This document shows, piece by piece, positions 4,555-41,235 of a DNA stretch of 64,000 nucleotides (the first letter of the stretch is position 1; every line of letters begins with the position of its first letter). Position numbers and translations under genes: made by a program. The DNA comes from Haloplanus sp. GDY1 (GTDB lineage Archaea > Halobacteriota > Halobacteria > Halobacteriales > Haloferacaceae). Where the stretch lies: assembly GCF_023703775.1 (NCBI RefSeq), contig NZ_CP098514.1, positions 2,267,998-2,331,997 on the forward strand. The letters are read 5' to 3'. The notes beneath the pieces are model-generated. The model searched no databases. It had not been told where the DNA came from and saw only the letters and a list, made by a program, of their open reading frames with translations.

Positions 4555-6648
4555 ATGAGCGACACACCGGACGGAGTCGAGACGATCTGTCCGTACTGCG
4601 GAGTGGGATGTGGAATCAAAGTGACCGAGGACATGCGGTTCGCGCCGTGGGGTGAGGCGCCGGTCAACGAGGGCCGGATCTGCATCAAGGGTGGCGCGGC
4701 GACGGAGGTCGTCGATCACGAGGACCGACTGACCGACCCGCTGATCCGCGGGTCGGACGGCGAACTCCACGCGGCCACGTGGGACGAGGCGCTGGACTAC
4801 GTGGTCGCGGAGATGGAGCGGATCCGCGACGACCACGGCCCGGACGCGATGGGCTTTTTCGGCTGCTCGAAGGCGATGAACGAGGAGAACTACCTCCTCC
4901 AGAAACTCGCCCGTCGCTACGGGACGAACAACGTGGACAACTGCACGCGCATGTGTCACGCCTCGACGGTGTACGCCCTGCGTCGGAGCCTCGGCGCGGG
5001 CGCGATGACGAACAGCATGGCCGACCTCCGGGAGGCGGCGGACGTGCTCTGGATCCAGGGCGCCAACCCCGCCGAGCAACACCCGATCGCCAACAGCGTC
5101 TACTTCCGGCAGGCGGTGCTGGAGGGGGCGACCGTCGTCCAGGTCGACCCGCACGCGAACAAGACGACCCGAGCGTTCGACGTCGAGGGGACCGACCGGC
5201 ACATGCATCTCCAACTCGAACCGGGGACGGACATTCCCCTCCTGAACGTCGTCATCAAGACCGTACTGGAGAACGGGTGGGTCGACGAGGCGTTCGTCGA
5301 GGAGCGCACCGAGGGCTTCGAGCACCTGGAGGAGACGCTGGCGGACTTCGACAAAGCGGAAGCTGCCGCGGAGTGTGGCGTCCCCCTGGAGGACATCGAG
5401 CGTGCGGCCGAGGTGTACGCCACCGCCGACAACGCGGCCATCTTCACGGGCATGGGGATGAGCCAGCACACCTGCGGCGTCGACAACGTGCAAAACGAGA
5501 TCAACCTCGCTCTCATCACCGGGAACCTGGGCCGTCCGGGCACGGGCGTCAACCCCCTCCGCGGCCAGAACAACGTGCAGGGTACCTGTGACGTCGGCGC
5601 GATGCCGAACACGCTGCCCGGCTACCAGAACGTCGAGGACGAGGCGCTCCGCGCGGAGGTCGAGGCGGTCTGGGGGTTCGACGTCCCGCCGAACGCGGGG
5701 CTGACGAACGTGGAACTCTCCCACGAGGCCGGGCGGAGCGTCCACGGCCTGTACGTGATGGGCGAGAACCCGATCATGAGCGAACCGGACGCCAATCGGG
5801 TCGAGGAGCGGCTAGCGGACCTGGAGTTCCTGGTCGTCCAGGACGTCTTCCCGACGGACACGACGGCGTACGCCGACGTGGTCCTCCCCGCTACCTCGTG
5901 GGCGGAGCGCGGCGGCACCGTCGTCAACACCGACCGACGGGTCCAGCGCATGCGCGGGATCGGGACGGTCCACCCGAACACGCGACACGACCTCGACATC
6001 GTCGCCGACGTGGGGCGGCGGCTGTTCGGCACGGGCGCCGGCTTCGACTTCGAGGAGCCGGAGGCGGTGTTCGAGGAACTCCGGAAGGTCTGTCCCATCT
6101 TCGCCGGGATGACCTACGACCGCCTGGGCGAGACGGGGATCCACTGGCCCTGTCTCGAACCCGGCGACGAGGGCGACCCCTACCTCTATGAGGAGGAGTT
6201 CACGACGAAAAACGGCCTCGGCTACATCGAGGGCGTCCGCCACCAACCGCCGAAGGAAGTGCCCGACGACGAGTACCCGCTGATCCTCACGACGGCGCGG
6301 CTGATCGAACACTACAACACGGGGACGATGAGCCGGCGGTCGCCGACGCTGAATCGCCAACACCCCGAGAACTTCGTCGACGTCCACCCGGCGGACGCCG
6401 AGCGGTACGGGGTAGCCGACGGCGACCGGGTCACGCTCCGCTCGCGACGCGGCGAAATCGAGGTGCGGGCACAGGTCACCGAGGACATCAAGGAGGGGAC
6501 GGTGTGGACGACGCCACACTTCGCGGCGTCGTCGGCCAACCGCCTGACGAACGACGTGCTCGACGAGCGGGCGAAGATCCCGGAGTACAAGGCGGCTGCG
6601 GTGGCGCTCGAACCGACAGAGGGTGCGGAGGCGGCCGGGGACGACTGA
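4555..6648 (+). CDS. Formate dehydrogenase alpha subunit-like molybdopterin oxidoreductase
   Basis: This 697-residue protein has the short FdhF/NarB architecture. An N-terminal 4Fe-4S site is formed by C12, C15, C19 and C43. The molybdopterin domains follow, with C134 in the RMCHAS motif at the position of the metal-ligating (seleno)cysteine. The segment around GMSQHTCGVDN, NLGRPGTGVNPLRG and GQNNVQG is typical of formate dehydrogenases, and a C-terminal dinucleotide-binding domain (about 565-680) contains HYNTGTMSRR. It should oxidise formate to CO2 with bis-MGD Mo or W, passing electrons to an unidentified carrier. No beta or gamma subunit and no FdhD lie beside it. The start has a clear Shine-Dalgarno sequence. 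Other members of the superfamily cannot be fully excluded. Confidence 0.85.
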   Translation: MSDTPDGVETICPYCGVGCGIKVTEDMRFAPWGEAPVNEGRICIKGGAATEVVDHEDRLTDPLIRGSDGELHAATWDEALDYVVAEMERIRDDHGPDAMGFFGCSKAMNEENYLLQKLARRYGTNNVDNCTRMCHASTVYALRRSLGAGAMTNSMADLREAADVLWIQGANPAEQHPIANSVYFRQAVLEGATVVQVDPHANKTTRAFDVEGTDRHMHLQLEPGTDIPLLNVVIKTVLENGWVDEAFVEERTEGFEHLEETLADFDKAEAAAECGVPLEDIERAAEVYATADNAAIFTGMGMSQHTCGVDNVQNEINLALITGNLGRPGTGVNPLRGQNNVQGTCDVGAMPNTLPGYQNVEDEALRAEVEAVWGFDVPPNAGLTNVELSHEAGRSVHGLYVMGENPIMSEPDANRVEERLADLEFLVVQDVFPTDTTAYADVVLPATSWAERGGTVVNTDRRVQRMRGIGTVHPNTRHDLDIVADVGRRLFGTGAGFDFEEPEAVFEELRKVCPIFAGMTYDRLGETGIHWPCLEPGDEGDPYLYEEEFTTKNGLGYIEGVRHQPPKEVPDDEYPLILTTARLIEHYNTGTMSRRSPTLNRQHPENFVDVHPADAERYGVADGDRVTLRSRRGEIEVRAQVTEDIKEGTVWTTPHFAASSANRLTNDVLDERAKIPEYKAAAVALEPTEGAEAAGDD

Positions 6649-6729
6649 CGACCCCGGCGCCTCGACGCGGTGCTCCGTCGAGGGGGGCGCACGCGAGCGT
6701 TTAAGCGGCTCCCGCCGTTAGAGCGTGGC

Positions 6730-7158
6730 ATGGAAGTGCGCGACGCGGTGGAGGCCGACGCCGACGCGCTCTCGGCCATCGCGGACGTGCCGGCCGACGT
6801 GGTCCGCAACCTGATCCACGACCGGACGGTCCGGGTGGCGCTCCGCGACCCGACGGCCGCGGGCCCCAACGCCGACACCGACGACGAGGGGCGCGACGTG
6901 GCCGGGTTCGTCAGCTTCGACGTCCGGGACGGGACCGTCCACGTGACGCAGTTGGCGGGGACCGGACCGGCCTGCGAGCGACTGCTCGCCGAACCCGTCC
7001 GCTTCGCCACGGGCGAGGAAATGACGGTCGAACTGCTGGCGATCAGCGGCGACGACGCCATCCGAGAGGCGGCGGAGGCCGCCGGCTTCGAGCACGAGGG
7101 CTCGGGACCGACGTTCGACGGGAACCCGACCGTGCGCTACCGGCTCGACCCCGCCTGA
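6730..7158 (+). CDS. GNAT-like acetyltransferase-fold protein
   Basis: This 142-residue protein begins MEVRDAVEADADALSAIADVP, a typical GNAT start (VR.A...D...L..I). It then has central strands (AGFVSFDVRDGTVHVTQLAGTG) and a C-terminal AAEAAGFEHEG motif, the usual end of the fold. The acetyl-CoA loop (Q/RxxGxG/A) is poor, replaced by GTGPACERLL, so catalysis is not assured. It is convergent with polB. The acceptor substrate is unknown. Confidence 0.6.
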   Translation: MEVRDAVEADADALSAIADVPADVVRNLIHDRTVRVALRDPTAAGPNADTDDEGRDVAGFVSFDVRDGTVHVTQLAGTGPACERLLAEPVRFATGEEMTVELLAISGDDAIREAAEAAGFEHEGSGPTFDGNPTVRYRLDPA

Positions 7159-7170
7159 CTCGGGCGGATT

Positions 7171-7188
7171 CCGGTAACTGGTTACCGG
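7171..7188. repeat. Inverted repeat between convergent genes
   Basis: CCGGTAAC and GTTACCGG form perfect 8-bp arms around a 2-bp centre, 12 bp after the GNAT-like stop and before the polB stop. It may be a hairpin aiding 3'-end formation for one or both transcripts. There is no adjoining T tract. Confidence 0.4.
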
Positions 7189-7241
7189 TGGTTCGACGAG
7201 ACGATCCGGCGAACCGCCGGTACTGACGTAGGACAACCCGT

Positions 7242-7262
7242 ATCAGGCGACGTATCAGGCGA
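7242..7262. repeat. Tandem 11-bp direct repeat at the polB stop
   Basis: The sequence GTATCAGGCGA occurs twice, nearly back to back, around the polB termination codon (7255-7257). It is probably an incidental short duplication; no function is implied. Confidence 0.3.
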
Positions 7263-8868
7263 ACTTCCGGACCGTCAGGTCCAGGGTGTCCAGGTCGACG
7301 ATGGGCGCGAAGCCGACGTCGGGGTCGATGTTGACGCTCTCCTGGAAGGCGGTCTGTGCCTGCCAGCAGCCGCTGTTGACCGCGAGGACGTTGTGGTACT
7401 TGCCGTAGCCGAGTTTGTGGACGTGGCCGGTGTGGAAAATGTCGGGGACGTCCTCGACGACCAGGTAGTCCCGCTCCTCGGGGGCGAGTCGCATGTGGCC
7501 GCCGTACTTCGGCGCGACGTGGCGTTTCTTCAGCAGGTGGTACATCGCCCGGTGGGGGTGGTCGTAGCTCGCTTTCTCCTCCGGAAGTTCGGCGATCACC
7601 TCGTCGAGCGAGACGCCGTGATACATCAGCACCGAGACGCCCTCGACGGTGACCGTCGAGGGGTTGCCGACGATCCGCGCGTCGTGGGCACCCATGATGT
7701 CCCGGAGTTCCTCGTCGAAGCCCGGTTGGGGCTCCGCGAGGCGGACGGCGTCGTGGTTGCCCGGGATCATCACGATCTCCAGGTCGCCGGGCACCGACTT
7801 GAGGTGTTCCGAGAACCGCTCGTACTGGTCGTAGATGTCGACGATGTCGAGTTCCTCGTCCTGATCGGGGTAGACGCCCACCCCCTCGACCATGTCGCCC
7901 GCGATCAACAGGTACTCGACGGCCGACGCCTCCTCGGTGTGGAGCCAGTCGGCGAAGCGCTCCCAGGCCTCGGCCTCGAACTCCTGGCTCCCGACGTGGA
8001 TGTCGGAGACGAGCGCCGCCTGCACGTGCCGGTCGGCGGTCGACGGCCGGTACGTCCGGGGCACGTCCGGGAAGTGAAGCGAGTCGACGAAGGCGATGCC
8101 CGCGTCGTCCGAGAGCGTCCCCTCGACGGCGAGACACTCGTCGAGGAGGAGTTCGTCGACGAGGTCCGTGATCTCGCGGTCCTTCGTGACCATGAAGGGA
8201 AACGTCCCGGTCGTGTCCTCGAGTTCGACGATCCAGTGGCCGTTCGCCGAGGTGCGTATCTCGTCGACCAGCCCGATCATCGCCACGTCGCTGCCGCCCG
8301 GCATGTCGGCGATGGCGGTGGCCGGGCGGTGGTTCACCCGACCCCGGAGCTGCCCCGAGAGCTTCTCGTACCGGTCGCGAAACACCGAGACGAAGTCGGC
8401 GTACTCGCCGGTCCCGGTACTCCGGCCGGTCACGTCGCCGTCGACCTCCGGGGGCTCGGGTCGTCGCCCGGATTCACCCCCCTCCTCGGACCCCTTCGTT
8501 TCGACTGGAGAACCATTTTCCGTGATGGAACGAGACGTCGAATCGGGTGGAGTCGAAACGGTGGTGTCGGTCGTCTCGGCAGTCGGGGTGTCGGTCGTCT
8601 CGGCAGTCGGGGTCGCGTGGGACGCCGACGGCCCGGCGGACGCGGCGTCCGAGTCGTCGGCCGACGCCGACGGGTCGGCCGCGGCGAGCGCCGACCGGAC
8701 GTGGTCGGTCGTGAGACGGAGCGCGTCGTCGGGGGCCGTCTCGACGGCCGCGTCGAGGGCACTCGCCGGGTCGGTGGCGCCCGCGAGGAGCGTCACGGCC
8801 TCGCGCTCGGCGTTGTAGCCGCGACGGGCGAGTTCCCGGGCGATCCGTGCGGGCGTCTCGAGAGGCAC
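7255..8868 (-). CDS. polB: DNA polymerase D small subunit (DP1), proofreading exonuclease
   Basis: This 537-residue protein has an N-terminal helical domain (1-60). A low-complexity acidic, Thr/Ser-rich linker follows (about 65-155), including a repeated TPTAETTDT segment. An OB-fold region spans about 180-275, and a calcineurin-like phosphoesterase domain contains SDIHVGS (288-294), GDMVEG (324-329), GNHD (370-373) and GHVHKLG. PolD is the archaeal replicative polymerase; DP1 is the 3'-5' exonuclease partner of DP2, whose gene is at 55165-60273. The coding sequence contains an ORB-like element at codons 119-127. It sits 3 kb from the origin, with sec11 divergent across 99 bp. The gene is also called polD1. 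Confidence 0.95.
   Translation of the reverse strand: MPLETPARIARELARRGYNAEREAVTLLAGATDPASALDAAVETAPDDALRLTTDHVRSALAAADPSASADDSDAASAGPSASHATPTAETTDTPTAETTDTTVSTPPDSTSRSITENGSPVETKGSEEGGESGRRPEPPEVDGDVTGRSTGTGEYADFVSVFRDRYEKLSGQLRGRVNHRPATAIADMPGGSDVAMIGLVDEIRTSANGHWIVELEDTTGTFPFMVTKDREITDLVDELLLDECLAVEGTLSDDAGIAFVDSLHFPDVPRTYRPSTADRHVQAALVSDIHVGSQEFEAEAWERFADWLHTEEASAVEYLLIAGDMVEGVGVYPDQDEELDIVDIYDQYERFSEHLKSVPGDLEIVMIPGNHDAVRLAEPQPGFDEELRDIMGAHDARIVGNPSTVTVEGVSVLMYHGVSLDEVIAELPEEKASYDHPHRAMYHLLKKRHVAPKYGGHMRLAPEERDYLVVEDVPDIFHTGHVHKLGYGKYHNVLAVNSGCWQAQTAFQESVNIDPDVGFAPIVDLDTLDLTVRKFA
8489..8513 (-). other. ORB-like element inside the polB coding region
   Basis: The minus strand reads CTCCAGTCGAAACGAAGGGG, which matches the core shared by the origin ORB elements (YYGAAACGAAGGGG). 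It lies in the low-complexity linker of polB (residues VETKGSEE), where the protein sequence is poorly constrained. It is about 2.9 kb from the orc1-proximal ORB and could be an additional Orc1 binding site. Confidence 0.5.
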
Positions 8869-33834: not shown

Positions 33835-34734
33835 CTACGTCAGCAGTTCGACCAGCAGCCCCGCCTGTGCGTGCAGGCGGTTCTCGGCCTGCTGCCAGAC
33901 GATCGCGCGGTCGCTCTCGACGACGTCGTCGGTGATCTCCTCGCCGCGGTGGGCGGGCAGACAGTGCATCACCGCGGCGTCGGTCCCCGCGAGGAGGTCG
34001 GCGTTCACCTGGTAGCCCTCGAACGCCGCCAGTTTCTCCTCGCGTTCGTCTTCCTCGCCCATCGACACCCAGACGTCGGTGTAGACGACGTCCGCGTCGG
34101 CGACGGCGTCGCCGGGATCCTCGACGACGGTCGGCGCGCGCCCGAGTTCGGCCGCGCGGTCCATCACCGCCCCGTCGACGCCGTAGGTCGGCGGGGTCGA
34201 AACCGTCACGTCCAGGTCCGCGAGCGCCGCCCCGAGGACGAACGACTGGGCGACGTTGTTGCCGTCGCCCACCCACGCGACGGTCACGTCGTCGAACCCG
34301 CCGAACCGCTCGCGGATCGTCAGGAGGTCCGCGAGCGTCTGGCAGGGGTGGGCGTCGTCGGTCAGCCCGTTGATGACCGGCACGTCGGCGTACTCGGCCA
34401 GTTCCTCGGCGTCCGCGTGGTCGAACAGCCGCGCCATGATGGCGTCGGCGTAGCCCGCGAGCGCGCGGGCGGTGTCCTTCACCGGCTCCCCGCGGCCGAG
34501 GTGGATGTCGTCCGGACCGAGGAAGATGGCGTGACCGCCGAGGCGCGTCATCGCCGTCTCGAAGGAGGTGCGGGTGCGCGTGCTCGGCTTCTCGAACACC
34601 ATCGCGAGCGTCTGCCGGGGCAGGTCGGTGTCGTCCTCGCCGGCCTTGATCGCCGCCGCGCGGTCCAGTACCGCCGCCAGTTCCGCGGCCGTGAGGTCGT
34701 CCACGTCCAGCAGGTCGGTCGTCTCGACGCTCAC
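33835..34734 (-). CDS. argF: Ornithine carbamoyltransferase
   Basis: This 299-residue enzyme makes citrulline from ornithine and carbamoyl phosphate. It has the carbamoyl-phosphate loop STRTRTS (51-57), the HPCQTLADL motif (about 130-138), the ornithine-binding SMGEE region and the catalytic HCLPAHRG near 258-265. It is the last gene of the overlapping minus-strand arg operon, with its start overlapping the argE stop by 4 bp. Confidence 0.95.
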   Translation of the reverse strand: MSVETTDLLDVDDLTAAELAAVLDRAAAIKAGEDDTDLPRQTLAMVFEKPSTRTRTSFETAMTRLGGHAIFLGPDDIHLGRGEPVKDTARALAGYADAIMARLFDHADAEELAEYADVPVINGLTDDAHPCQTLADLLTIRERFGGFDDVTVAWVGDGNNVAQSFVLGAALADLDVTVSTPPTYGVDGAVMDRAAELGRAPTVVEDPGDAVADADVVYTDVWVSMGEEDEREEKLAAFEGYQVNADLLAGTDAAVMHCLPAHRGEEITDDVVESDRAIVWQQAENRLHAQAGLLVELLT

Positions 34735-35801
34735 GCGTCCACCTCCGTCAGGCGCTCACAGACGTCGATCAGCACGTCGATGGAGCGGTCGTACTCCGCG
34801 AGGCGGAGGTGTTCGTCGGGCGCGTGATCCAGGTCCGAGTCGCCGGGGCCGTAGGTGACCATCGGACAGTCCCACGCCGAGGCGAAGACGTTCATGTCGG
34901 CCGTCCCCGTCTTGCGGAGGAGCCGCGGATCGCCGCCCGCCTCCCGGATGGCCGCGCGGAACGCCCGCGCGACGGGCGTCCGCGGGCTCTCCATCACCGG
35001 GGGGACGTGGTCGTACCAGTGGACGGTGCCGATGTCGAGTTGGCCGTCGGCGATCTCGCGCACGTCGTCGACGGTGTACTTCGGCGGAACCCTGAGCTGT
35101 ACCTCCATCGTCGCCTCGACGGAGAGCCCGTCGACGCTGGTCCCGCCCTCGAACGAGGTGGGTTTGCAGGTGACCCGCTCGAAGACGGGCAGGTACTCGT
35201 CGGGGTCGAACTCCTCTTCGACCCGGGACCACCAGTCCATCGCGTCCTGGATGGCGTTGTTCTCCGGGCGGGAGGTGTGGCCCGACTCGCTGGTGGCGAC
35301 GTACGTCCCCGCCAGCAGGCCGCGGTAGCCGAGCGTGATGCCCGTCCACCCGCTCGGCTCGCCGTTGACGACCGCGCCGGGTTCCGCGCGGTCGCTCTCG
35401 ATCACGTGGCGCGCGCCCCGGGAGTCGACCTCCTCGCCGACGACGCCGAGGAAGCTCACGCCCGTCGCCACCGCGGCGACGGCCATCGCCGCGAGCGGCC
35501 CGGTCGCGTCGACGCTGCCGCGCCCCCACAGTTCGCGGTCCTCGCCCTCGCCCTCGATCTCCACCGGGATGTCGCCCGGCACCGTGTCGATGTGGGAGGT
35601 CAGGAGGACGTCGTCGTTCGCCGGCGCGTGGACGTTGCCCACCTCGTCGATCCACACGTCGCGGTCGTGGGCCTCGAAGAAGTCCACCAGCCGCCGGGCC
35701 GCCGCCGCCTCCTCGCCCGATGGCGAGGGGATGGAGACGAGGTCGACCAGCAGCCGCTGGGCGTCGGTCAACTCCGCCGCCGCCGACTCGCTCACCGTCA
35801 C
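34731..35801 (-). CDS. argE: [LysW]-ornithine/lysine hydrolase (M20 family)
   Basis: This 356-residue M20 metallopeptidase has metal ligands H70 and D72 in SHIDTVPG, VVGEEVDSRG with the catalytic Glu, and a final YGPGDSDLDHAPDEH. In the LysW pathway it releases ornithine (and/or lysine) from the carrier protein LysW; the gene is also named lysK. The overlaps with argD and argF (4 bp each) indicate tight co-translation. Confidence 0.9.
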   Translation of the reverse strand: MTVSESAAAELTDAQRLLVDLVSIPSPSGEEAAAARRLVDFFEAHDRDVWIDEVGNVHAPANDDVLLTSHIDTVPGDIPVEIEGEGEDRELWGRGSVDATGPLAAMAVAAVATGVSFLGVVGEEVDSRGARHVIESDRAEPGAVVNGEPSGWTGITLGYRGLLAGTYVATSESGHTSRPENNAIQDAMDWWSRVEEEFDPDEYLPVFERVTCKPTSFEGGTSVDGLSVEATMEVQLRVPPKYTVDDVREIADGQLDIGTVHWYDHVPPVMESPRTPVARAFRAAIREAGGDPRLLRKTGTADMNVFASAWDCPMVTYGPGDSDLDHAPDEHLRLAEYDRSIDVLIDVCERLTEVDA

Positions 35802-36919
35802 AGTACCGCCTCCAGCGCGTCGACGAAGCGGTCGGCGTGGCTCTCCTCGACGATCAGCGGCGGCAACAGGCGCAGGACCGTCCGCCCAGCCGGGAGCGCG
35901 AGGATCCCCTCCTCCAGCGCCAGGTCGCGGAGCAGGCGGTTCGACCCCCGCTTCACCTCGACGCCGATCATCAGCCCCCGTCCCCGCACGTCGCGGATCG
36001 GGAGGTCGGCCGCCTCGAGCTCCTCCATCAGGTAGCTCCCCACGTCGGCGGCGTGGGTCGGGAGGTCCTCCTCGACGACGACGTCGAGGGTGGCGTTGGC
36101 CGCGGCACAGACCACCGGCCCCCCGCTGAACGTCGACCCGTGTTCGGGGTCGGCGTCGGCGATCCAGTCCGCACAGACCGCCGCGCCCAGCGGCAGGCCG
36201 CTGGCGATCCCCTTCGCCGTCGTGAGGATGTCCGGCTCGACCTCGGCGCGCTCGCAGGCCCAGAGCGTCCCCGTCCGGCCGACGCCGGTCTGGATCTCGT
36301 CGAAGACCAGCGCCGCGCCCGCCTCCTCGGTCACCTCGCGCGCCCGGCGCAGGTACGTCGGATCCGCGGGGTGGATGCCGCCCTCGCCCTGGATGGGTTC
36401 GAGGAAGACCGCCGCGGTCTCCTCGTCGACCGCGTCGGCGAGTTCCTCGGCGTCGCCGTAGGAGACGAACTCCACGTCACCCGCGAGCGGTTCGAACGGC
36501 GCCTTGTACTTGTCCTTCCACGTCATCGCGAGGGCGCCGAGGGTGCGGCCGTGGAACCCCCGGCGGGTGGCGACGATCTTCGACCGCCCGGTGGCGTTGC
36601 GCGCGAACTTCATCGCCGCCTCGTTGGCCTCCGTGCCGGAGTTACACAGCCAGACGTTGTCGAGGCCGGGCGGCGACACCGCCGCCAGCTTCTCGTACAG
36701 TTCCGTCCGCGCCGCGACCGGGTAGGACGCCTGGACGTACAGCAGGTCCTCGGCCTGCGACCGCACGGCGTCGACGACCCGCGGGTGACAGTGGCCCACG
36801 GACGCGACGGCGTAACTCGCGCCGAAGTCCAGGTACTCGGTGCCGTCGTCGGCGTAGAGGGTGACCCCCTCGCCGCGTTCGATGCCGATCGGTTTCTCCG
36901 AGAAGACGAACCCGCTCAT
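35798..36919 (-). CDS. argD: Acetylornithine/[LysW]-aminoadipate semialdehyde aminotransferase
   Basis: This 373-residue class-III PLP aminotransferase has K236 as the Schiff-base lysine in TTAKGIASG, VFDEIQTGVGRTG (206-217) and NSGTEANEAA (93-102). It aminates the semialdehyde carried on LysW in arginine (and possibly lysine) synthesis; the gene is also named lysJ. It shares 4-bp overlaps with argB and argE. Confidence 0.93.
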   Translation of the reverse strand: MSGFVFSEKPIGIERGEGVTLYADDGTEYLDFGASYAVASVGHCHPRVVDAVRSQAEDLLYVQASYPVAARTELYEKLAAVSPPGLDNVWLCNSGTEANEAAMKFARNATGRSKIVATRRGFHGRTLGALAMTWKDKYKAPFEPLAGDVEFVSYGDAEELADAVDEETAAVFLEPIQGEGGIHPADPTYLRRAREVTEEAGAALVFDEIQTGVGRTGTLWACERAEVEPDILTTAKGIASGLPLGAAVCADWIADADPEHGSTFSGGPVVCAAANATLDVVVEEDLPTHAADVGSYLMEELEAADLPIRDVRGRGLMIGVEVKRGSNRLLRDLALEEGILALPAGRTVLRLLPPLIVEESHADRFVDALEAVL

Positions 36920-37740
36920 GTGTCCTCCAGTGCGCTCGCGTGAACGTGTGTTCCGCCGCTCCCGAGCGCCCCCGTCACGGGCGCGTCGGCGTTGGCGTCG
37001 GCGACGACCACCTCGGGCGACCCCGACTCCAGGGCCTCCGTCGCGGCCATCACCTTCTTCCTCATGAACCCCTCCGCGGCGTCGGTCAGCGCGTCGTACT
37101 CCGCGGGGGTAGTCACCGATTCGATCAGCGTCGCCGGATCCTCCGGATCCGCGTACACCCCGGCCACGTCGGTGAGGACGACCAGCCGCGCGCCGAGGGC
37201 GCCCGCGACGGCCGCGGCCGCCCGGTCGGCGTCCGTGTTGACCGGCACGCCGTCGTCGGCGAGCATCGGCGGCCCGGTGACGGGCGTGTAGCCGTCCGCC
37301 AGCAGCGTCTCCAGCAATTCGGCGTTGACCGACTCGATCCTCCCCGAGTGGTCGCCGCGCTTGATCTTCTTCTTGCCGTCCTCGACCACCCGCACCGCGG
37401 ACTTCCGCGCGCCCGTGACGAGGCCGCCGTCGACCCCCGAGAGGCCGACGGCGTCGACGCCCGCCTCGCGGAACGCGGCCACGAGGTCGGTGTTCACCTT
37501 CCCCATCGCCATCGTGAACGCCTCCATCGTCGCCTCGTCGGTGAACCGGCCGACGACGCCGTCCGGCGTCTCGACGTACGTGGGGTCGATGTCGAGGCGG
37601 GAAAGCAGGTCGTCGACCGCCGTCGACCCGCCGTGGACGACGACGACGGGTTCGCCCGACGCGACGAGGTCCGCGACGTCGCCGACGGCGCCGGCCGGAT
37701 CGACCGCCTTCGCGCCGCCGATCTTGACCACGACCGTCAT
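36916..37740 (-). CDS. argB: [LysW]-glutamate/aminoadipate kinase
   Basis: This 274-residue amino-acid kinase has KIGGAK near the N-terminus, HGGSTAVDDL and LTDVAGVYADPEDPATLIE, as in N-acetylglutamate kinase relatives (LysZ). It phosphorylates the gamma-carboxylate of LysW-bound glutamate. ATG 37740 overlaps the argC stop by one base. Confidence 0.93.
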   Translation of the reverse strand: MTVVVKIGGAKAVDPAGAVGDVADLVASGEPVVVVHGGSTAVDDLLSRLDIDPTYVETPDGVVGRFTDEATMEAFTMAMGKVNTDLVAAFREAGVDAVGLSGVDGGLVTGARKSAVRVVEDGKKKIKRGDHSGRIESVNAELLETLLADGYTPVTGPPMLADDGVPVNTDADRAAAAVAGALGARLVVLTDVAGVYADPEDPATLIESVTTPAEYDALTDAAEGFMRKKVMAATEALESGSPEVVVADANADAPVTGALGSGGTHVHASALEDT

Positions 37741-38777
37741 TACGGCGCCCCCACGGGGTGGAGTCCCTGGAACTCCAGGCCGGCCGTCTCCTCGATGCCG
37801 AGCGCGACGTTCGCGGCGTGGACCGCCTGCCCGGCCGACCCCTTCATCATGTTGTCGATGGCCGAGAAGACCACGAGCCGGCGGTTCCCGGGATCGAGTT
37901 CGAAGCCCACTTCGCCGTAGTTGGTGCCCGCCACCGCCTTCGGTTCGGGGTAGCGGTAGACGCCGCCACCGCCGGCGACGGTGCGCATGAAGGGTTCGTC
38001 GCCGTAGCTCTCGCGGTAGGCGCCCCACAGTTCCTTCTTCTTCACCGGCCCGTCCGGGAAGACGTGACAGGTCGCGGCGGCGCCGCGGGTCATGTCCACC
38101 GCGTGGACGGTGAAGGAGACGGAGAGCCCCAGGAACTCCTCGATTTCGGCCTCGTGGCGGTGGCCCGTCGGGGCGTACGGGCGGACGATCCCCGACCGCT
38201 CGGGGTGCGAGGAGGCCGCGCCGCCGCCGGCGCCCCCCTCCGAGGAGCCCACCTTCACGTCGACGACGACCCGCTCGTCGCCCGCGAGGATCCCGGCGTC
38301 GAACAGGGGCTTCAACCCCAGGATGGTCGCCGTCGCGTTGCAGCCGCCGGAGGCGATCAGGTCCGCGCCGGCGAGGCTCTCGCGGTTGAGCTCCGGCAGG
38401 GCGTACTCCGCCTCGGCGAGCAGTTCGGGCCGCTCGTGGCCGTCGTACCACTCGTCGTACTGCTCCTCGCTCCCGAGCCGGAAGTCCGCGCTCAGGTCGA
38501 CCACCGTGTCGGCCGCGTCCCGGAAGTCGTCGATGCGCTCCATCGAGACGCCGTGGGGCGTCGCCGCGAACAGCACGTCCACGGACTCGAGGTCCGTCGG
38601 CGAGGTGAAACGGAGGTCCATCCCGCGGAGGTTGGGGTGTTGGTGGCCCACCGTCTTGCGCTCGTAGCTCCGACTCGTCGCCTGGGCCACCTCGAACTCC
38701 GGGTGGCCGTCGAGCAGCCGGAGGAGTTCGCCGCCGGCGAAGCCGCTGGCGCCGACGACGCTCGCGGCGTGGGTCAC
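37740..38777 (-). CDS. argC: [LysW]-glutamyl/aminoadipyl phosphate reductase
   Basis: This 345-residue N-acetyl-gamma-glutamyl-phosphate reductase family protein has a GASGFAGGELLRLL nucleotide fold (9-22) and the catalytic Cys146 in SGGCNATA. It also has the family segments KVGSSEGGAGGG and a C-terminal DNMMKGSAGQAVHAANVALG. It reduces the acyl phosphate on LysW with NADPH; the gene is also named lysY. It overlaps argX by 4 bp. Confidence 0.94.
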   Translation of the reverse strand: MTHAASVVGASGFAGGELLRLLDGHPEFEVAQATSRSYERKTVGHQHPNLRGMDLRFTSPTDLESVDVLFAATPHGVSMERIDDFRDAADTVVDLSADFRLGSEEQYDEWYDGHERPELLAEAEYALPELNRESLAGADLIASGGCNATATILGLKPLFDAGILAGDERVVVDVKVGSSEGGAGGGAASSHPERSGIVRPYAPTGHRHEAEIEEFLGLSVSFTVHAVDMTRGAAATCHVFPDGPVKKKELWGAYRESYGDEPFMRTVAGGGGVYRYPEPKAVAGTNYGEVGFELDPGNRRLVVFSAIDNMMKGSAGQAVHAANVALGIEETAGLEFQGLHPVGAP

Positions 38778-39634
38778 GCCGTCGCCTCCTGTGCCGCCTT
38801 GGTCTCCAGCCAGTCGACGATGGTCGCGGGCACGTCGAAGTCGACACAGGAGTCGAGCGCCTTGAACTCCACCGTGTGGTTCACCTCGTGGACGGTGTAG
38901 GAGTCGCCCGTCTCCATCAGGTCGACGCCGAGCAACCCGCCGCCGACGGCGTCGGAGGCGCGTTTCACCAGGTCCGCCACCTCGTCGGTCACCTCGAACT
39001 CGTTCACCTCGCCGCCCTTCGCCGCGTTGGTGAGCCAGTGGTCGGAACTGCGCGTCATCGCCGCGACCGGTTCGCCGTCGGTGGCGACGACGCGGATGTC
39101 GCGCCCGGGCTTCTCGACGAACTCCTGGATGTAGAACACCTTGTGCTCGTAGTGGCCGAGGGTGGCCTTGTGTTCGAGGATGGCCTCGGCGGCGCTCCGG
39201 GAGTCCACCTTGGCCATCAGCCGCCCCCAGGAGCCGATGACCGGCTTGAGGACGCAGGGGTAGCCGAAGGCCTCGATGGATTCGAGGGCGCTGTCGGTCG
39301 TGAAGGCCACGTCGGTGTTCGGCGTCGGCACGCCCGCGTCCTCCAGCACGAGGCTGTTTTTCACCTTGTCCGCACAGAGTTCGGCGGTGTCGGCCGCGTT
39401 GATCACGGGCACGCCGTAGGCGTCGAGGAAGCGCGTCACGTAGCGGCTCCGACTCGTCGCCAGACAGCGGTCGACCGCGATGTCGACGTCGTCGAACGCC
39501 TCGGGCGCCTCGCCGATGTTGAACTGCTCCTTCCGGACGTCGATTTTCGTCACCTCGTGGTCGCGGTCCCGGAGTTCCGAGAGCAGGAGCTTCTCGTCCC
39601 GCCGGATCCGCGAGTACAGCAGTCCGACGTGCAT
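38774..39634 (-). CDS. argX: Glutamate--LysW ligase (ATP-grasp)
   Basis: This 286-residue ATP-grasp ligase of the RimK/LysX family has CVLKPVIGSWGRLMAKV (ATP-binding loop), YIQEFVEKPGRDIRV and an EVNHTVEFKALD end with metal ligands. It attaches glutamate (or aminoadipate) to the C-terminus of the carrier LysW. Notably, no lysW gene is next to it. The ATG at 39634 overlaps the argG stop as TGATG. Confidence 0.9.
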   Translation of the reverse strand: MHVGLLYSRIRRDEKLLLSELRDRDHEVTKIDVRKEQFNIGEAPEAFDDVDIAVDRCLATSRSRYVTRFLDAYGVPVINAADTAELCADKVKNSLVLEDAGVPTPNTDVAFTTDSALESIEAFGYPCVLKPVIGSWGRLMAKVDSRSAAEAILEHKATLGHYEHKVFYIQEFVEKPGRDIRVVATDGEPVAAMTRSSDHWLTNAAKGGEVNEFEVTDEVADLVKRASDAVGGGLLGVDLMETGDSYTVHEVNHTVEFKALDSCVDFDVPATIVDWLETKAAQEATA

Positions 39635-40866
39635 CACTCCTCGCTCCAGTCCGCGCCGTCGGTCACCGCTTCGGTCCCGTCGCCTTTCGCTTCCGCGAGC
39701 ACCTTCGCCGCCAGACGCTCCTGGAAGCCGTGGTACTTCGCGACGCCCGTCGCGTCGGCCTGCGTAATCGACCCCACGTCCTCCGTGTTGAAGGAGGCGA
39801 AGGATTCGTCGTAGACGGCGTACTCGCTGTCGCGGCCGACCGGGCGGGCCTGTCCGCCCTCGAACCGGATCGTCACGGTGCCGGTGACGCGGGTCTGGGT
39901 CGCGTCGATGAAGCCCTCCAGAGCCTCCATCAGGGGCGCGTCGACCAGCCCCTCGTAGCCCTTCTGGGACCACTCGTCGTCGACGCGCCGCTTGAAGTCG
40001 CGCTCCTCTTTCGTCAGGACGAGGCTCTCCAGCGTCTCGTGGGCGTTCAGGAGCGTCGTCGCCGCCGGATGCTCGTAGTTCTCGCGCACCTTCAGCCCGA
40101 GCATCCGATCCTCCATCATGTCCGTCCGCCCGACGCCGTACTCCCCGGCCACCTCGTTGAGGTGTTCGATGAGCGCGATGGGCTCCATCGCCTCGCCGTC
40201 GACGGCGACGGGGTAGCCGTTCTCGAAGGTGATCTCGACCTCCTCGCTGTCGCCCGACGGCGAGCGCGTCCAGTCGTAGATCTCCTCGCCCGGCACGTGC
40301 CCCGGCTGCTCCAGATCGCCGCCCTCGATGGAGCGACTCCAGAGGTTCGTGTCGATGCTCCAGACGCCCTCGTTGCCGCCCTCCACCGGGAGTTGCTTCT
40401 CGGCGGCGTACTCCATCTCCCACTCGCGGGTGAGGCCGAGTTCGCGCACGGGCGCGATCACGTCGAGGTCGGAGGCGCGCCAGACCGCCTCGAAGCGCAA
40501 CTGATCGTTGCCCTTGCCCGTACAGCCGTGGGCGACGGCGTCGCAGTCGTTCTCCCGTGCCACGTCGAGGATGGCCTCGGCGATGACCGGGCGCGCGAGC
40601 GCCGTCCCGAGCGGATAGCCCTGATACGTGGCGTTCGCCCGGACCGACTCCAGACACTGCGACGCGAACTCCGCCTTGGCGTCGACGACGTAGTGTTCCA
40701 GATCCAGCGCCTCGGCCGTCTCCTCGGCCTCGGCGAACTCCGCGTCGGGCTGGCCGACGTCGACCGTGACGCCGACGACCTCGTCGTACCCCCACTCCTC
40801 CTCGAGGAGCGGGACGCATACTGTCGTGTCGAGTCCGCCGGAGAACGCGAGTGCAACACGTGTCAT
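39634..40866 (-). CDS. argG: Argininosuccinate synthase
   Basis: This 410-residue enzyme condenses citrulline and aspartate with ATP. It has the P-loop SGGLDTTVC (9-17), the HGCTGKGNDQLRFE motif and the EGGNEGVWSIDTNLWSRSIEGGDLE block typical of ArgG. It is first in the seven-gene operon. The promoter candidate (TATAA at 40893-40898) is ~30 bp upstream, suggesting a leaderless transcript. ArgH, the next enzyme, is not in the operon. Confidence 0.96.
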   Translation of the reverse strand: MTRVALAFSGGLDTTVCVPLLEEEWGYDEVVGVTVDVGQPDAEFAEAEETAEALDLEHYVVDAKAEFASQCLESVRANATYQGYPLGTALARPVIAEAILDVARENDCDAVAHGCTGKGNDQLRFEAVWRASDLDVIAPVRELGLTREWEMEYAAEKQLPVEGGNEGVWSIDTNLWSRSIEGGDLEQPGHVPGEEIYDWTRSPSGDSEEVEITFENGYPVAVDGEAMEPIALIEHLNEVAGEYGVGRTDMMEDRMLGLKVRENYEHPAATTLLNAHETLESLVLTKEERDFKRRVDDEWSQKGYEGLVDAPLMEALEGFIDATQTRVTGTVTIRFEGGQARPVGRDSEYAVYDESFASFNTEDVGSITQADATGVAKYHGFQERLAAKVLAEAKGDGTEAVTDGADWSEE

Positions 40867-40890: not shown

Positions 40891-40900
40891 ACTTATATTC
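40891..40900 (-). promoter_or_regulatory. Promoter of the arg operon
   Basis: The minus strand reads GAATATAAGT, centred about 30 bp upstream of the argG ATG, and is preceded by A+T-rich AATAATAAAAGC. This is the haloarchaeal TATA spacing for a leaderless transcript. Confidence 0.55.
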
Positions 40901-41136: not shown

Positions 41137-41235
41137 TTACTCTTCCTCTTCCTCTTCCTCTTCTTCCTCCTCGTCCGCTGGCGTGAACCGCTTGTACACC
41201 GTCCCGCCGGTGAACCGTCGCTCGTCGTCGGGCAT
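41137..41235 (-). CDS. 32-residue microprotein with poly-Glu tail
   Basis: The ORF starts at ATG 41235 and encodes MPDDERRFTGGTVYKRFTPAD followed by 11 consecutive Glu. The Glu codons form a GAA/GAG microsatellite-like array (41140-41172). The N-terminal part looks conserved-like (polar and basic, TGGTVYKRF). No domain is recognised. The neighbours are an unrelated membrane-protein gene downstream and the arg operon, across a 270-bp spacer. Confidence 0.55.
   Translation of the reverse strand: MPDDERRFTGGTVYKRFTPADEEEEEEEEEEE

Follow-up and report, generated by a model that had tools for sequence, protein, structure and literature searches.

The window analysed here is a 64,000-nucleotide stretch (C1:2267998-2331997) of the 3.4 Mb genome of the haloarchaeon Haloplanus sp. 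GDY1, and it carries an arginine gene cluster without argH, the gene for argininosuccinate lyase, and without lysW, the gene for the carrier protein LysW. Seven overlapping genes lie on the minus strand at 33835-40866 in the order argG-argX-argC-argB-argD-argE-argF, each sharing 1-4 nucleotides with its neighbour. All seven proteins score above the cut-offs of their models, which are those for ArgG, LysX/ArgX, ArgC, ArgB, ArgD, [LysW]-hydrolase (LysK/ArgE) and ornithine carbamoyltransferase (Table 1). An earlier note on this DNA had claimed that argG directly abuts argX and that neither argH nor LysW occurs in the window. Both claims hold: the argG stop and the argX start share the A of a TGATG at 39636-39632, and whole-genome profile searches (PF21344 and TIGR00838) placed neither gene in the window. 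We considered the tail of ArgG as a remnant of lysW and rejected it, because a similar TEAVTDG tail occurs in a related genome that retains argH (G332), so that the tail is argG's own.

A search of the remaining genome, as the note had proposed, found both genes away from the cluster. LysW is a single match to PF21344 (C1:362600-362734), a protein of 54 amino acids with four cysteines and EDWGE. It scores 67.2 on TIGR01206 (cut-off 53.2) and 59.4 on the domain model NF041070, below the cut-off of 75. Every one of the 12 Haloplanus genomes encodes a LysW with both CxxC zinc pairs and the EDWGE C-terminus. The argH gene (C1:827130-828389, 420 amino acids) gives the only TIGR00838 match above the cut-off, at C1:827169-828260; two further matches, at C1:72620 and C1:770363, reach 72 and 26 bits, and no native-type argH scored above the cut-off of this profile in the genome. 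As argH and lysW are both present elsewhere, the LysW-dependent gene set is complete (argW, X, B, C, D, E, F, G and H).

A comparison with related genomes indicated when the cluster changed. The close survey covered 30 related genomes including 12 of Haloplanus, our own among them; lysW, argH and argX were all found in 29, and none of the three was detected in G024, which is 81% complete. In all 12 Haloplanus genomes argG stands directly before argX, with lysW and argH apart. Among the other 17, lysW adjoins argX in 16 (the exception is G020), and argH lies within the cluster in 14 (not in G025 or G027; G014 stops at a contig edge). In a family sample of 109 genomes, lysW is at most 303 bp from argX in 98 of the 98 non-Haloplanus genomes with matches (G445, 73% complete, had no match). 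In the sample's 10 Haloplanus genomes the two genes are more than 0.58 Mb apart (8) or on different contigs (2). Apart from Haloplanus itself, the member of the sample with the closest ArgX (89%) is G431, the sister genus in the ArgG+ArgX tree (100/99), which retains the whole argG-argH-lysW-argX-argC order with a native-type argH. Since all 12 Haloplanus genomes share their state and the 98 other family genomes, G431 included, keep lysW beside argX, the absence of argH and lysW from the cluster is, on this distribution, a loss on the Haloplanus stem. The note had held that an order common to the sister species would be ancestral rather than a deletion; the state is indeed the ancestral one within Haloplanus, yet compared with the sister genus and the family it is a derived loss. 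Its suggestion that the junction was resealed by a start-stop overlap stands only in part, as TGATG occurs in 4 of the 12 genus genomes and the other 8 have a 2-nucleotide gap before ATG or GTG.

The solitary ArgH differs from that of other haloarchaea. It is at least 87% identical within Haloplanus, and on TIGR00838 (cut-off 279.5) the Haloplanus proteins score 276-287 bits, whereas best matches in the 17 other genomes reach 425-543 bits; our own reaches 282.7, and 11 of the 12 lie above the cut-off with G011 just below it (276.2). Three of four nanohaloarchaeal ArgH scanned also exceed this cut-off, the fourth (L099) scoring 271.4. In a search of 391 genomes of the class, 387 of them with a match, more than 800 bits were reached only in 8 of 8 Haloplanus genomes, and the next best match had 198 bits and 35% identity. 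The other haloarchaeal ArgH among the matches listed are 32-38% identical to the Haloplanus protein. The segments SRNDQ, GYTH and TGSSIMPQK.NPD, which we take to be the catalytic segments of argininosuccinate lyase (ASL), are present and invariant in 12 rows, and the protein aligned to the solved ASL 2e9f with 189 bits. The ASL_C2 domain (PF14698) gave no match in the ArgH of two Haloplanus, four nanohaloarchaea, Parabacteroides, Bernardetia and Xanthomonas; it was matched in the one native haloarchaeal ArgH tested, in those of Paraclostridium and Azospirillum and in a paralogue of G008. The domain is a common one, but annotated bacterial ArgH of the short type are also without it.

Maximum likelihood analysis joined Haloplanus and four nanohaloarchaeal ArgH in one clade (100/99; 98/92 with G414 added). 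Next outward stand Bacteroidota and gammaproteobacterial ArgH, including that of Xanthomonas, and native haloarchaeal ArgH is far off. A scan of named genomes (genome_contigs collection), limited in reach by the two peptide patterns it used, returned 10 loci: two of Haloplanus, four of Nanohaloarchaeota (55-60%) and four of Proteobacteria (43-44%). The ArgH gene tree thus conflicts with the species relations and the native copy is absent, as in known xenologous displacements, where a foreign gene replaces a native essential one. By these comparisons the Haloplanus ArgH is a xenologue and not the native haloarchaeal gene.

Several features tie it to Nanohaloarchaeota, which live as ectosymbionts of haloarchaea. 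Haloplanus-to-nanohaloarchaeal identities in ArgH (55-60%) overlap those among the nanohaloarchaea (58-63%), whereas in ArgG the ranges are 41-46% and 71-78%. The ArgG of the window is not of the nanohaloarchaeal kind, being at least 70% identical to most haloarchaeal ArgG examined. The short-type ArgH of Nanosalina J07AB43, Nanosalinarum J07AB56, QJJ-9 and NHA25 shares with Haloplanus the clade, the missing ASL_C2 match and an acid-rich make-up (mean 0.186 in Haloplanus, 0.185 in nanohaloarchaea, 0.172 in native and 0.128 in Bacteroidota ArgH). The setting differs: in these four, argH comes immediately behind argG, and argS comes next in all but QJJ-9, while the Haloplanus argH is solitary and has a copG-like neighbour 3' of it. 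By locus, argH overlaps or abuts argG in four of four (L098-L101), and argS is next in L098, L099 and L101 but not L100. In G414 argG is about 1 kb from argH, and overall argS is next to argH in 3 of 5 nanohaloarchaeal loci. The annotated short-type ArgH of Bacteroidota and Xanthomonas resembles the Haloplanus protein at 36-41%, likewise has no ASL_C2 match and has a TIGR00838 match ending near position 390, but it is less acidic and forms a separate sister clade.

The origin of the solitary lysW was approached through its relatives. The cluster LysW of G431 is without cysteine, as are those of G016, G444, G332, G140, G174 and G144 and a second LysW copy in G026, a member of another family. 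Cysteine-free LysW lies beside argX in 38 of the 109 family genomes, counted as genomes in which the LysW match does not begin before model position 4; 31 further ones were fetched and 31 of 31 proved cysteine-free, and a contrast set of nine further genomes held eight four-cysteine LysW and one that was not parsed. A tree of few columns, with a warning of long branches, separates the cysteine-free set, to which the G431 cluster copy belongs, from the rest at 100/96; after removal of the columns next to the cysteines the support for this split is 96/99. Because Haloplanus LysW falls outside this set, survival of a second copy seems, with moderate confidence, a likelier origin for it than a move of the cluster gene. 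The accessible parts of the literature on LysW zinc and cysteine, on haloarchaeal LysW and on Haloferax ArgW describe no cysteine-free LysW; in particular, the accessible part of one account gives ArgW with its cysteines and no cysteine-free variant (PMC10433800). The cysteine-free proteins raise the question of whether the carrier needs zinc at all.

These results bear on the note's proposal that both genes had moved elsewhere or had been replaced. Both are indeed elsewhere, and replacement fits better than movement, given the xenologous ArgH and, with moderate confidence, a LysW outside the sister-cluster set. In a simple relocation, a rearrangement would have carried the native argH and lysW to new chromosomal sites and the junction would have closed. 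That both functions are found elsewhere agrees with this, as does the ordinary haloarchaeal four-cysteine type of the LysW, and the short LysW trees do not speak against it. Relocation is nevertheless highly improbable in view of the ArgH tree, the 32-38% identity to native haloarchaeal ArgH among the matches listed, the absence of the ASL_C2 match seen in the native one tested, and the membership of the sister-genus cluster LysW in another set.

We propose that the ancestral cluster read argG-argH-lysW-argX-argC and onward and that it changed on the Haloplanus stem after the split from G431. Non-orthologous copies elsewhere would have displaced both cluster genes, which were then deleted from between argG and argX; this order of events is presumed. 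The native argH would have given way to a short-type argininosuccinate lyase of the Nanohaloarchaeota clade, which stands alone behind its own promoter-like block, is presumably expressed, and may have had as its donor a nanohaloarchaeon or some near relative outside the sample. The solitary four-cysteine LysW may serve in place of the former cluster LysW, which the sister genus suggests, with moderate confidence, was probably devoid of zinc cysteines. We regard displacement on the stem by non-orthologous copies, with argH from a nanohaloarchaeal lineage and subsequent deletion, as probable on the sequence evidence. ArgX joins glutamate to the C-terminal glutamate of LysW, ArgB, ArgC, ArgD and ArgE lead on to ornithine, and ArgF, ArgG and ArgH complete arginine. 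From this established knowledge, the pathway should work as in other haloarchaea, with its last step catalyzed by the foreign ArgH.

A number of observations weigh against this proposal. The nesting of Haloplanus inside the nanohaloarchaeal ArgH clade is weak (88/60 and 72/54 in two trees); keeping the four close nanohaloarchaeal rows together costs 0.36 log units (approximately unbiased, AU, test, p 0.452), and keeping all five together gives an AU p of 0.0645. The tree program warned of uneven letter make-up in the nanohaloarchaeal rows, and of G414, Xanthomonas and the G008 paralogue sitting on long branches. Within the nanohaloarchaeal phylum just 5 of 28 genomes carry the gene, the G414 ArgH is only 39% identical to that of Haloplanus, and the flanking argS-like matches are weak on both sides (28-29%). 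The base composition of argH does not look foreign (GC 0.654, GC at third codon positions 0.938). For the lysW step, the deep forks of the ArgG+ArgX family tree are not resolved, a reduced LysW tree places Haloplanus with the cysteine-free proteins, but at 25/0 and so in favour of neither side, and the 54 residues of LysW resolve little and would fit relocation of an old four-cysteine copy too.

A third, unsampled halophile could also have supplied argH to both groups. In this account Haloplanus and Nanohaloarchaeota each took the short-type gene from, for example, a Bacteroidota-type or gammaproteobacterial lineage, and it draws on the nesting, which is not significant, and on the wider clade, which includes Bacteroidota, Xanthomonas and other gammaproteobacterial ArgH. 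We think it unlikely, as the pattern-limited two-peptide scan found only Haloplanus, Nanohaloarchaeota and Proteobacteria (43-44%), and the Haloplanus ArgH stands near nanohaloarchaeal-to-nanohaloarchaeal distances. Nanohaloarchaeota are known to acquire many halobacterial genes. Transfer from the Haloplanus stem into Nanohaloarchaeota would follow the direction reported for gene flow, which is from Halobacteria into Nanohaloarchaeota in the accessible part of that study (PMC9765267). It appears very unlikely here, because G431, with an ArgX at 89%, is without the gene, so that Haloplanus acquired argH after the split. Moreover, the four close nanohaloarchaeal holders look older: their ArgG differ by 22-29% and their ArgH by about 40%, and the argG-argH arrangement is common to all of them, an argument that faster nanohaloarchaeal evolution would weaken. 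A nanohaloarchaeal donor is favoured, though not proved. We give slightly better than an even chance to the reading that the ectosymbiont lineage passed an essential gene to the ancestor of a whole host genus, with permanent displacement of the native gene; the ArgH tree, the order of the genes, how far the proteins have diverged relative to one another and the acid-rich composition common to both groups all agree with it.

Such an ectosymbiont-to-host transfer would run opposite to the usual flow, as described in the accessible parts of the reports on Nanohaloarchaeota (PMC9765267, PMC10266531). One of these, in its accessible part, records a CRISPR spacer from a nanohaloarchaeon with a 91% match to a plasmid of Haloplanus, a hint of contact between the two (PMC10266531). 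Another source lists ArgG and ArgH among DPANN only in Altiarchaeota and Micrarchaeota, with nanohaloarchaea as disputed DPANN, in the part available (PMC8407392). As far as the available text goes, the ArgW/LysW pathway of Natrinema gari J7-2 (PMC10433800) and Haloferax volcanii (HVO_0046/0047, PMC8305020) likewise has argX, argC, argB, argD, argE, argF and argG, a four-cysteine LysW with an EDWGE tail and an ArgX with GSWGR; Haloplanus differs in having argH and lysW outside the cluster and an argH of another lineage. No report of an argH replacement in Haloplanus was among the matches listed for nanohaloarchaeal gene transfer, argininosuccinate lyase, DPANN argH and Haloplanus arginine biosynthesis, a search that mostly did not reach subscription journals. 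If our proposal is right, close contact with nanohaloarchaea in the past has left its trace in Haloplanus as an essential gene that is now fixed, and what looks like a gap in a conserved operon may be the sign of a gene replaced and not of one lost.

At the new sites, a copG-like gene lies at most 1.3 kb to the 3' side of argH, and at least one of three recurring small genes lies upstream of lysW, in 12 of 12 Haloplanus genomes each. The neighbour names copG, nnrS, acyP and pip are our presumptive assignments; the copG and pip proteins gave no NCBIfam match. Putative promoter-like blocks, conserved by eye, precede argH and lysW in all 12 (AACCCTTTAGTAC-like; CGAAAGGCATCCTTCAAGT-like). One pattern-limited scan of viral contigs found no relative that would suggest a viral carrier, and 271 matches in plasmid records were all below 60% (top five 37-40%).

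Table 1. Arginine cluster of the window and cysteine-free LysW of related genomes (window positions unless a contig is named; scores in bits against the model cut-off).
Feature	Position	Strand	Evidence and remarks
argG, argininosuccinate synthase, 410 aa (amino acids)	39634..40866	-	NF010392, 648 against 512
argG/argX junction with overlapping stop and start codons (TGATG)	39632..39636	-	site of argH and lysW in relatives
argX (LysX family), glutamate-[LysW] ligase, 286 aa from ATG	38774..39634	-	TIGR02144, 293 against 275.6; GSWGR motif in translation
argC	37740..38777	-	TIGR01850, 347 against 233.6
argB, kinase of LysW-dependent type	36916..37740	-	NF010661, 467 against 251; query with 5 extra residues in front
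argD	35798..36919	-	TIGR00707, 411.0 against 410.05 (barely above)
argE / lysK type [LysW] hydrolase	34731..35801	-	NF003367, 521 against 363
argF, ornithine carbamoyltransferase	33835..34734	-	NF001986, 409 against 306
putative promoter-like block GAATATAAGT before argG	40891..40900	-	by eye; similar block in 7 of 7 genomes printed, of 12
cysteine-free LysW	L125:7203-7385; L036, L120-L122, L124, L129, L131-L161	+ (L125)	CxxC changed to DPxTG-like and SPxTG-like stretches; EDWGE tail kept

Some further loci deserve mention. G431 also has a solitary four-cysteine lysW, which we rejected as an orthologue of the Haloplanus gene since it groups with G023 (86-87%) and has different neighbours. It abuts an nnrS-like gene (52%; L126:5744-7257, minus strand), and most Haloplanus argH also lie near an nnrS-like gene, which may be chance. 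In G020, of another family, argG-argH-argX-argC is kept and lysW stands alone about 16 kb off (L130:6477-6641, plus strand), an independent departure of lysW. Besides its arginine cluster with cysteine-free LysW, G444 carries a second lysW-argX pair (ArgX 66%) followed by an argD-like gene (L128:5444-7791, minus strand). The second ArgH-like gene of G008 (L055:1399-2913, minus strand; 504 aa, 356 bits) was rejected as a native relic, as it lies between MFS-like and TRAP-transporter-like genes, is 39% identical to native ArgH and sits on a long branch; this lyase is perhaps catabolic. The Nanosalina J07AB43 contig L098 has an argS-like fragment upstream (89-754, 54%) and a full argS after argH (6438-8255). 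In the window itself, positions 41137-41235 of the minus strand could encode a 32-aa protein whose tail is eleven glutamates in a row.

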